Assembly (NCBI RefSeq): GCF_001280505.1
Contig: NZ_LBIO01000028.1
Location: forward strand, 1-64,000
Length of the DNA: 64,000 nt
Origin: Mangrovimonas sp. TPBH4
GTDB lineage: Bacteria; Bacteroidota; Bacteroidia; Flavobacteriales; Flavobacteriaceae
Reading direction: 5' to 3'
In this document: one piece after another, positions 41,211-45,087 of the stretch
Layout of the letters: each line of letters starts with the position of its first letter
Position numbering within the stretch: position 1 is the first letter of the stretch
The notes under the pieces: model-generated
What the model was told of the DNA's origin: nothing
What the model saw: only the letters and a program-made list of their open reading frames with translations
The model's database searches: none
Position numbers and translations under genes: made by a program

Positions 41211-42752
41211 CTAAAATTTATAACTCAACCCGGTATACACGCCAATAAAGTATGGCTGAAAATCGCCAGAGGTATTATTGAAGGTATTGAGCTGGTACTT
41301 GAACATAGGTTCAAGGTTTACTTTTATTTTTCGCGATACATTGTAATTCATTCCTAATCCAAAATTGGCACTATAACTCATGTCGTTGATGTTTGTGGCT
41401 TCTCCAATATGGATTCTATAGCCATCGCCAGTAGCATATACATCATTGTGATTGGTAAAAAGGGTACTAAAGCCTCCAATAAGGTTAAGGCCCAGTTTTT
41501 TGCTCACCAGAGCGTATTCCAATTCTACAGGAACTTCTATAAAACCAAATTGTTGTTCCAATGCTCCGTAAGTTTTTAGGTTCATAACCTCAGGGGAGCT
41601 ACTGTTAATGTTTTGAGTGCTCATAACGGAATTGTTGGCAGCGCTGTTGCTCATTCGTAAATTTTGGATTTGCGAATTATTGTTATTAGCACTGTTGTAG
41701 GCAATCACATTTTTGGTACTGTATCCAAGGTCTACTTTGTTTACGCCAACGCGTACTTTTATTTTATCGTTAAAGGCATAGCTTCCACTTACCCCATAAC
41801 TTGTATTGATTTCACCACTTTTGGAATTGTTAACAAACTGTTCGTCTATTGGAGATCCTTTGCCTAATGTGTTGAAATAAACAGGTGCCACATTTGGAGA
41901 AATGTTCCACCTGCTTAGTTTCTCTTCTTTTTCCTTTTCATTGGTCTGTTCATTGGCTTCTGCAATAGCCTCTTCTATTGTGGTGTCTTCTTTTTCGGTT
42001 GTTTGTGCTACTTCTTCCGAATCCTCGTTGGCTTCATCTAAGACATCTTGAGAAGTTTTGGTGTTATCATTAGAAGTAGGGAGCTTGGTTGTTGTTTCGG
42101 CAACCCTTATTTGTTCGTCTTTCAGTAAGGTATTGATTTGAGTACTCTTATCTGAGATTTTTGAGCTCTTGGAGTTGGATTCAGGTAGATTTGGAGCGCT
42201 GTGGGTTACGGCTCGATTGCTATTAGGTAAAAGAGCATCTTTTTGTTTTTGAGCCTCTTTTTTAGGCGTATTGTTTTGTGTGTATGAGGTGTTTTCTTCG
42301 GAAGAAATTGCAACCGTAGAGGAATTATTTGAATTTGAAGAGGTTTTGTTTGGTTGAAGTAATTCGTTTTTCGAACCATTTAAAGCGTCTTCACTTTGGT
42401 TGTTTTCAGTGACAGTATTTTGGGTACTTGTATTGAAATCCATAGTGGAATCTATTGTGGATTTCTGAGAAGTACTATCGTTATTTTCACTATTGGTGTG
42501 CTCTTCAACCAAAGGTGTCGAATTCTCTTGAATAATATCCGAAGGGCTAAAAATGAATTTCCCTGTCGTAAACAGTAATGCCAATAGTGCGGCAACACCG
42601 GCAAATTGCCACCAAATACCAATGACTCTACGTTTGCGTTTATTGCCGTGCAAGCGCTGTTCTATGTTGTTCCAGACTTCTTCATTTGGAGTGGCTTCAA
42701 AATTTTTGAACTGCTCCTGAAATAGCCTGTCAATATGTTTTTTATCACTCAT
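41211..42752 (-). CDS. Trans-envelope anti-sigma / outer-membrane beta-barrel protein (Dma-like)
   Basis: A 513-residue protein with four zones. Residues 1-42 are a soluble charged segment with FKNFEATPNEEVWNNIEQRL ending in the basic patch NKRKRR. Residues 43-66 are one membrane helix (IWWQFAGVAALLALLFTTG). Residues 68-280 are a low-complexity Ser/Asn/Thr/Glu/Lys linker. Residues 281-513 are a beta-barrel domain of alternating strands ending in Phe, the outer-membrane insertion signal. There is no signal peptide, and the basic patch puts the N-terminus inside. The ECF sigma gene directly upstream shares TAATG with it. This matches the dual membrane-spanning anti-sigma factors described in Bacteroides thetaiotaomicron. 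The anti-sigma role is inferred. Confidence 0.78.
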   Translation of the reverse strand: MSDKKHIDRLFQEQFKNFEATPNEEVWNNIEQRLHGNKRKRRVIGIWWQFAGVAALLALLFTTGKFIFSPSDIIQENSTPLVEEHTNSENNDSTSQKSTIDSTMDFNTSTQNTVTENNQSEDALNGSKNELLQPNKTSSNSNNSSTVAISSEENTSYTQNNTPKKEAQKQKDALLPNSNRAVTHSAPNLPESNSKSSKISDKSTQINTLLKDEQIRVAETTTKLPTSNDNTKTSQDVLDEANEDSEEVAQTTEKEDTTIEEAIAEANEQTNEKEKEEKLSRWNISPNVAPVYFNTLGKGSPIDEQFVNNSKSGEINTSYGVSGSYAFNDKIKVRVGVNKVDLGYSTKNVIAYNSANNNNSQIQNLRMSNSAANNSVMSTQNINSSSPEVMNLKTYGALEQQFGFIEVPVELEYALVSKKLGLNLIGGFSTLFTNHNDVYATGDGYRIHIGEATNINDMSYSANFGLGMNYNVSRKIKVNLEPMFKYQLNTFNNTSGDFQPYFIGVYTGLSYKF

Positions 42753-43294
42753 TATAACGATTGGGAATTGGATCCCGTTTTATGCATTTCAATTTTTTCT
42801 TTTAATATCAATCGTGCCCTTGCCAGATTGGATTTTGAGGTGCCCGTGGATATCTCCAACATTTTGGCAATTTCCTTATGCGAATACCCATCCAATACAT
42901 AAAGGTTGAACACCAACCTGTAGCGGTCCGGCAACTGTTGGATGATGCCCAATAGGAAATCGAGGGAGATTTGTTCTTCGTCAATTTCCAGGGAAACATC
43001 TTCTATTTGGCCTTCGTTTACAATGTCAAACACACCTGCGCTGCGATAGCGCTGTAAGGCCGTGTTAATGGCAATGCGTTTCATCCAGCCTTCCAAAGAA
43101 CCTTTGCCTTGATATTGTGAGATTTTACCAAAAATGGTAAGAAATGCGTCTTGCAGGTTGTCTTCTGCTTCGGCATAGTTTCTAGAATACTTCAGACAAA
43201 GCGAGAATAGTTTGCTCGCGTAGAGCTTGTATATCTGGCTTTGTGCTTTCGCATCATTTTTTTTACAACTTTCTATAAGTTGCTCTAGGCTCAC
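42752..43294 (-). CDS. ECF RNA polymerase sigma factor
   Basis: A 180-residue sigma-70 family protein with region 2 (IYKLYASKLFSLCLKYSRNYAEAEDNLQDAFLTIFGKI and GWMKRIAINTAL) and region 4 (LPDRYRLVFNLYVLDGYSHKEIAKMLEISTGTSKSNLARARLILKEKI). The start is a GTG at 43294; the overlapping ATG two bases away is in another frame. It is translationally coupled to the beta-barrel anti-sigma candidate and preceded, 31 bp away, by a small lipoprotein gene. There is no FecR or TonB-dependent receptor nearby, so this is not the usual iron-type system. Confidence 0.92.
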   Translation of the reverse strand: MSLEQLIESCKKNDAKAQSQIYKLYASKLFSLCLKYSRNYAEAEDNLQDAFLTIFGKISQYQGKGSLEGWMKRIAINTALQRYRSAGVFDIVNEGQIEDVSLEIDEEQISLDFLLGIIQQLPDRYRLVFNLYVLDGYSHKEIAKMLEISTGTSKSNLARARLILKEKIEMHKTGSNSQSL

Positions 43295-43325
43295 ATTATC
43301 GCGGTATTTGGTTAGGTAACACTGT

Positions 43326-43742
43326 TTATTCTGCTACGGGAACTTCAACAATATAGTACAAATCATTTCCGTTCTCATCTTCACCTTGCCAAAATTTGAA
43401 TATATAAGTTCCGTTGCTAACTACTTTAAAGTTAAAGGATACTTCCTCAATTACTTCGGGTTCATAATCTTCGCAATCATTTTCATATACCTTGTCAACA
43501 ACGGCTATAGTTCTTTGGTTGAGTTCACTTTCAAAATAATGATCATAAAAGACATAGCAGCTTGAAGGCTTTAGGTAACTAGTATAAATAGTGTAAGTTT
43601 CGCCAAGAACAAACTCTTCGGGCATATCCACACTCTCTATTGGAAGTATTTCTAAGTGGTAAGAATTTGATCTACCGTCGTCATCAAGGCTACAGGACAT
43701 GACCGTAAGTAGGAACGTACATAAAAATAAGATCTTTTTCAT
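43326..43742 (-). CDS. Small lipoprotein upstream of the ECF sigma factor
   Basis: A 138-residue predicted lipoprotein with signal MKKILFLCTFLLTVMSC (lipobox Cys at 17) and an acidic, beta-rich mature part (EEFVLGETYTIYTSYLKPSSCYVFYDHYFES; FNFKVVSNGTYIFKFWQGE), which reads like one Ig-like beta-sandwich. A start three codons upstream is also possible. It is followed 31 bp later by the sigma gene, so it could be a signal input or target of that system. Function unknown. Confidence 0.7.
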   Translation of the reverse strand: MKKILFLCTFLLTVMSCSLDDDGRSNSYHLEILPIESVDMPEEFVLGETYTIYTSYLKPSSCYVFYDHYFESELNQRTIAVVDKVYENDCEDYEPEVIEEVSFNFKVVSNGTYIFKFWQGEDENGNDLYYIVEVPVAE

Positions 43743-43826
43743 TTTCAACATTATTTGGGATTAAAGAGTAATACCTTTTCAAGGTAAAGATGCTAAAACC
43801 GTTGAAAGGTTGCGTTAAAAACAAAA

Positions 43827-44871: not shown

Positions 44872-44994
44872 TATTCAGTCGTTTTCTAAAATTAAATTCA
44901 GGCTAAAATACGATAACTTTTGATTTTTTTCAATCTTATCACGCAACCTTTTTGAGCTTTTCACATCTACCTAATAATTAAGGGAAATCTTGCT

Positions 44995-45087
44995 ATGAAA
45001 TTCTTTAAGAAAACAATTGTCCACAAGGCATTAGGTGTTTCGGTTGCAATTACTTTTAATAGCAGCTGTAAAGCCGATGGAGGCTAA
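44995..45087 (+). CDS. Possible 30-residue secreted or lipoprotein-like peptide
   Basis: An ATG at 44995 opens 30 codons to a TAA. The product begins MKFFKKTIVHKALGVSV with a basic N-terminus and hydrophobic core, reaches a Cys after NSS, and ends KADGG. This looks like a miniature lipoprotein signal with only seven residues from the Cys onward. AGGGAAA lies 13 bases before the ATG, and a strong terminator (45148-45180) closes the unit. It is the only coding candidate in the 391-bp gap between recA and trhO. It could also be a chance ORF. Confidence 0.4.
   Translation: MKFFKKTIVHKALGVSVAITFNSSCKADGG

Follow-up and report, generated by a model that had tools for sequence, protein, structure and literature searches.

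A predicted trans-envelope anti-sigma protein of the Dma/Reo kind, with its ECF sigma factor and a small lipoprotein, across the Flavobacteriaceae

Results and discussion

A three-gene operon in Mangrovimonas sp. TPBH4 encodes, in this order, a small lipoprotein, an ECF sigma factor and a 513-residue protein that, judged from its sequence, probably reaches from the cytoplasm to the outer membrane. We consider it likely that the operon as a whole is an outer-membrane stress switch of the Dma/Reo kind (Das-Dma, EcfO-Reo). New here is a family-wide lineage of such systems with its own lipoprotein partner, promoter, predicted targets and 30-codon gene. Genes, architecture by sequence, homology to Dma1, synteny, promoter and the co-occurrence of motif and system were computed for the window (the whole 64,000-nucleotide stretch of DNA that was analysed) and its relatives, and the features are collected in Table 1.

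Table 1. Features of the operon and its surroundings, and predicted targets elsewhere in the genome (positions are those of the window unless a contig, C, is named).
Feature	Position	Strand	Basis
Predicted Dma/Reo-type trans-envelope anti-sigma protein, 513 aa	41211..42752	-	ORF, family relatives, profile match to Bacteroides Dma1 family
Residues 1-42, MSDKKHIDRLFQEQFKNFEATPNEEVWNNIEQRL, predicted anti-sigma segment in the cytoplasm, with basic patch KRKRR at its end	42627..42752	-	conservation and hhalign to Dma1
Residues 43-68, single inner-membrane helix, predicted uncleaved, N-in	42549..42626	-	hydropathy, charge; low-confidence model
Residues 69-281, disordered periplasmic tether, conserved length, drifting sequence	41910..42548	-	alignment of 23 sequences
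Residues 282-513, C-terminal outer-membrane beta-barrel-like domain, last residue Phe	41214..41909	-	sub-threshold Pfam, hhalign, beta-rich low-confidence models
ECF sigma factor, 180 aa, GTG start	42752..43294	-	Pfam regions 2 and 4
Small lipoprotein, 138 aa, predicted surface-exposed	43326..43742	-	alignment, acidic residues after lipid Cys
Predicted sigma-dependent operon promoter CGCAACCTTTCAACGGTTTTAGCATCTT	43787..43814	-	motif in relatives, controls
Second promoter copy, beyond recA, pointing away	44942..44969	+	motif match; same place in 37 relatives
30-codon gene MKFFKKTIVHKALGVSVAITFNSSCKADGG, unannotated, predicted regulon member, ends CKADGG	44995..45087	+	conservation, promoter
Predicted target: 30-codon gene	site 44942		motif
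Predicted target: 135-aa lipoprotein	C20:83027		motif
Predicted target: 170-aa lipoprotein	C56:16236		motif
Predicted target: 203-aa outer-membrane-like protein	C58:64242		motif

Architecture of the predicted anti-sigma/barrel protein

The only strong hydropathy peak of the 513-residue protein covers residues 43-69 (peak windows start at 42-51). It is preceded by 42 hydrophilic residues, with KRKRR at 38-42, and followed by 21 residues free of Lys and Arg, a distribution of charge that predicts an N-in orientation. The same pattern of hydropathy and charge recurred in 23 sequences of the protein family, in whose alignment K5, I7, D8, F11, E13, W27 and I30 of the N-terminal segment were invariant. 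Beyond the helix, a polar tether of about 215 residues, rich in Asn, Ser, Thr, Glu and Lys across the family, held its length (family mean 206, sd 13, range 169-230 in 23 sequences) while its sequence drifted, to 20% identity, where the N-terminus kept 63% and the barrel 58% in the same 23 sequences; this is as expected for a spacer that bridges a fixed distance. The layout proposed in a sequence-only reading of the window (cytoplasmic segment, basic patch, one inner-membrane helix and about 210 disordered residues) agrees with these features of the protein.

Phe was the last residue in 22 of the 23 aligned sequences. The C-terminal domain matched Pfam OMP_b-brl_2 with E=4.7e-5 and 24 bits, under the 27-bit cut-off, and OmpA_membrane with E=0.004. 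AlphaFold2 models of the full protein and of the barrel alone, made with an alignment of Dma1 relatives only, were of low confidence (pLDDT 42-44) and had a helix at 41-67 and a beta-rich C-terminal domain; the barrel call therefore rests on the sub-threshold Pfam matches and on profile similarity. Searches of solved structures with the barrel profile and with the lipoprotein profile gave no credible match.

Relationship to the Das-Dma and other systems

Bacteroides loci of the das1-dma1 type were located via the NigD1/NigD2 family and recognised by their sigma/anti-sigma/NigD context, and were then found in 34 named contigs, nearly all from Bacteroides. By Dma1 we mean the family encoded beside das1-like and NigD genes in close relatives of B. 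thetaiotaomicron, itself absent from the set. When 23 flavobacterial and 26 Dma1-family sequences were compared using hhalign (200 column shuffles, gap columns removed), the N-terminus with its helix matched Dma1 with E=5.1e-11 (score 56.4, shuffle maximum 20.3), the soluble N-terminus alone with E=1.5e-5 (score 25.8, shuffle maximum 16.1), and the barrel matched the Dma1 barrel with E=4.5e-6 (score 46.3, shuffle maximum 26.8). Reversed controls for the N-terminus also scored far lower. In a tree of 63 ECF sigma sequences, the sigma factors with this type of partner formed one group apart from the FecI-like ones (SH-aLRT 97), inside which das1 and the lineage of the window's sigma factor made up separate groups. 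To judge from the clade that it shares with das1, the window's sigma factor is a possible member of ECF21.

With both ends homologous to Dma1 but the two sigma factors in separate groups, the profile and tree comparisons place the flavobacterial system as a relative of Das1-Dma1, not as its orthologue. The Dma architecture named in the sequence-only reading is supported by the homology at both ends and by the common sigma clade. The systems are further alike in their architecture, in the order of sigma and then anti-sigma gene and, together with EcfO-Reo, in an adjoining lipoprotein gene and in lipoproteins as predicted or demonstrated targets (PMC13088901, PMC9308784, PMC13114119). They differ in that the flavobacterial sigma factor is of a separate lineage and lies at a different locus, with other upstream sequence, a longer tether and the 30-codon peptide gene. 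Moreover, the gene adjoining das1-dma1 in Bacteroides is a divergent NigD lipoprotein gene, whereas a co-directional gene for a non-NigD, non-homologous lipoprotein forms part of the operon here. The flavobacterial-type promoter was not seen before das1. Upstream of das1 in the Bacteroides loci (L081-L112) we observed a strongly conserved stretch that contains TGCAGTATTT and then TATCTTTG and AAACACGTGT, unlike the flavobacterial promoter. Since the flavobacterial system has another promoter region and another lipoprotein than Das1, it may not share Das-Dma physiology in every detail.

Dma2-Das2 of B. thetaiotaomicron (BT_1558/BT_1559) has, by its published description, the same architecture (PMC13088901), the flavobacterial system differing from it in being family-wide. 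As in FecI-FecR-FecA, an outer membrane signal would be passed to an ECF sigma factor, but the flavobacterial locus has neither a FecR nor a TonB-dependent receptor, one chain takes the place of two proteins, and the sigma factor belongs to another clade.

Gene order and the small lipoprotein

The stop codon of the sigma gene (42754-42752) and the start codon of the anti-sigma/barrel gene (42752-42750) overlap as TAATG, and the two genes adjoined each other, without any separation, in every relative locus where the stretch was readable. The neighbours of the pair are recA, the lipoprotein gene, plsC (encoding a plsC-like acyltransferase) and trpS, and no gene for FecR or a TonB-dependent receptor lies next to the locus. 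The sequence-only reading had pointed to the TAATG overlap and to the missing FecR and TonB receptor, both as found here, and had named separation of the two genes in relatives as grounds for refutation.

The 513-residue protein occurred in 126 of 149 genomes of the family, mostly at full length, and among the approximately 30 best loci the order recA, lipoprotein, sigma, barrel, plsC, trpS was kept almost without exception. All but a few of 46 loci had the lipoprotein, some of the exceptions being incomplete loci. Conservation of the lipoprotein-sigma-barrel trio across Flavobacteriaceae, which had been put forward for checking, was thus evident in nearly all relatives examined; the lipoprotein had also been regarded as an extra component in this organism, and its place in the gene order of nearly all relatives means instead that it is not specific to it. 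The viral contigs that were searched gave no relative.

The lipobox of the lipoprotein, VMSC, is followed by SLDDDG (a longer ORF starts at 43751), and three Cys, the lipid Cys and two more, are invariant in the alignment. In 21 of 23 sequences the lipid Cys is closely followed by at least two acidic residues, similar to the signal by which Bacteroidota export lipoproteins to the cell surface (PMC5080379). Assignment of the lipoprotein to NigD was considered and rejected: it had no Pfam match, the NigD1/NigD2 NCBIfam model gave just E=0.034 over residues 5-56, and the hhalign comparison with NigD gave E=0.11 with a score inside the shuffle range.

Two-gene relatives

The same N-terminal module and helix also occur in shorter anti-sigmas, of about 250-280 aa, elsewhere in the class. 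All six two-gene operons examined (L002, L061-L065) continue with a gene whose product has an N-terminal signal and, in five of them, matches OMP_b-brl_2 (E 3e-5 to 1e-12). One of the six, L002, is in the TPBH4 genome itself (contig C50, 163717-167478) and comprises an ECF sigma factor, a 267-aa anti-sigma with the same N-terminal module and a signal-bearing protein of 364 aa, which has a barrel-like end but no barrel Pfam match. These relatives share with the fused protein the N-terminal module, the helix, the sigma clade and a barrel-type gene next in line, but their anti-sigma and barrel are two proteins, which would have to interact to be physically connected. It looks as if one pathway has been built in two ways, as a fused protein and as a two-gene operon, and this speaks for a functional tie of anti-sigma and barrel. 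At two loci from another family of the order (L060, L066), the N-terminal module and helix head open frames of ~750-775 aa.

A conserved promoter motif

Upstream of the lipoprotein gene, GCAACC(T/A/C)(T/A)(T/A)-N11-(G/T)(C/T)ATCT was present at fixed spacing in 38 of 46 loci, and a reversed-order control in none; the other eight were without it in the stretch examined, some stretches being incomplete. The consensus, ECF-type GCAACC-N14-NYATCT, is almost invariant. Its exact form CGCAACCWTT-N12-YATCTA was found in 90 of the 149 family genomes, and the reversed form in 0/149. Every one of these 90 genomes belongs to the 126 that have the barrel gene, and the motif is missing from all 23 that lack it (Fisher p=2e-11, to be taken as a guide, as the count includes the operon's own promoter, the genomes are related and small genomes lack both). 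We infer that the sigma factor reads the GCAACC-N14-NYATCT motif. The presence of this promoter before the operon hints that the sigma factor regulates its own synthesis and that the lipoprotein is made first.

Predicted regulon and a 30-codon gene

Besides the operon, the best sites in the TPBH4 genome lie 53-59 bases before the start of four genes (Table 1). In the other species of the genus, sites are again seen ahead of the operon, the peptide gene and the genes for the 135-aa lipoprotein and the 203-aa protein. Behind 31 sites in other genera, the first gene encoded a lipoprotein in 15 cases and a protein with another signal sequence in eight, counts that are descriptive as the method favours signal-bearing frames; the lipoprotein targets often have acidic residues after the Cys. 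The predicted regulon is small, consisting mostly of surface lipoproteins, with an outer-membrane protein and a 30-residue peptide. On contig C30 of the same genome, several matches were seen at mirror positions summing to 418881, in what seems an inverted duplication and is possibly an assembly artefact.

Beyond recA, and divergent from it, lies the 30-codon gene, with the second promoter before it and a terminator-like hairpin behind. Its 25 examples are all exactly 30 codons long, with a median dN/dS of 0.30, and in the last six codons differences amount to 6%, 3% and 32% at codon positions 1, 2 and 3. A profile of the gene found it in 38 of 149 genomes (E<1e-3), in 37 of the 38 within a few kilobases of the operon. 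The peptide belongs to no NCBIfam family, the string CKADGG was not found in the literature searched, and the residues before its Cys (NSS, NSN, NGN) form no classical lipobox. In two other genera (L167, L168), a 28-aa frame, MKIILIMSLLIIFNIILLVFSVNKRTDP, and a relative of it lie directly behind the same promoter. It is conceivable, though improbable, that the CKADGG peptide is cut to a very short lipid-linked or released messenger with a role at the outer membrane or in feedback on barrel or lipoprotein; anti-sigma systems would then have a kind of peptide output that is new.

Proposed mechanism and alternatives

In the switch that we favour, the N-terminal ~42 residues would tie the ECF sigma factor encoded next door to the inner membrane, the single helix would cross this membrane and the disordered tether would join it to the beta-barrel in the outer membrane. 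Damage to the outer membrane, or its mis-assembly, would be sensed by barrel or tether and would free the sigma factor, probably by proteolysis. The freed sigma factor would transcribe its own operon and the small regulon from the GCAACC-N14-NYATCT promoters and, as the operon includes its own anti-sigma, the switch would reset itself. Sigma binding, outer-membrane insertion, the signal, proteolysis and motif recognition are what we infer here, along with a possible effect on vesicles, the last carried over from Bacteroides by analogy. Such an effect has been published for Dma1 and Dma2 of B. thetaiotaomicron, where deletion of dma2 leads to sigma-dependent hypervesiculation (PMC13088901). In Dma/Reo relatives, loss of the anti-sigma turns the sigma factor on (PMC13088901, PMC9308784), and both a toxin acting on the envelope and a BamA inhibitor induce EcfO-Reo (PMC9308784, PMC13114119).

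The operon lipoprotein is most likely an output of the switch. It may alternatively be a sensor subunit on or in the barrel to which it relays the signal, and be fixed as first operon gene for that reason, a role that we regard as possible, if rather unlikely. It would resemble that of RcsF with OmpA in the Rcs system, where a lipoprotein and a beta-barrel report the state of the outer membrane, a likeness by analogy, without homology shown, and with a phosphorelay at its end instead of a sigma factor. The fixed gene order and single shared promoter in nearly all relatives speak for a sensor, as do the conserved Cys pair and core of the lipoprotein, but lipoproteins encoded away from the operon have the same promoter, and at least one locus (L047) seems to lack the operon lipoprotein. 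Furthermore, in Phocaeicola NigD surface lipoprotein genes are outputs of the EcfO regulon (PMC13114119), the NigD beside das1 being of another family.

A second doubt concerns the barrel. With Pfam matches below cut-off and models of low confidence, the C-terminal domain could be a beta-rich periplasmic sensor, and the protein an ordinary inner-membrane anti-sigma with a long stalk. We think this quite improbable in view of the homology to the Dma1 barrel, the almost constant terminal Phe, the conserved tether length and the related operons in which a separate OMP_b-brl_2 protein takes the corresponding place. There is a similarly small chance, if anything a slighter one, that another sigma factor reads the motif and the operon is just one of its targets: the TPBH4 genome has 21 matches to the sigma region-4 family, but in most genera the motif precedes the operon of this very sigma factor, family genomes without the system have no copy of it, and autoregulation is usual for ECF sigma factors. 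Finally, the hydrophobic helix near the N-terminus might recall a signal, making the protein wholly periplasmic or outer-membrane and its place after the sigma gene a chance of the operon, but this is scarcely credible given the adjacent sigma gene in all readable loci; nor did the normal signal peptide that the sequence-only reading had named as grounds for refutation emerge, the helix following 42 hydrophilic, highly conserved residues homologous to the anti-sigma segment of Dma1.

Altogether, if the favoured switch operates as outlined, one-chain signalling from cytoplasm to outer membrane extends from gut Bacteroides to a large, mostly environmental family, the Flavobacteriaceae, with a near-universal presence there and a constant lipoprotein partner. 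As the promoter is almost invariant, the regulon can be read directly from sequence, which makes the sensing and the outputs of such switches testable in genetically tractable flavobacteria, and the two-gene relatives provide a natural experiment on the importance of the physical tether.
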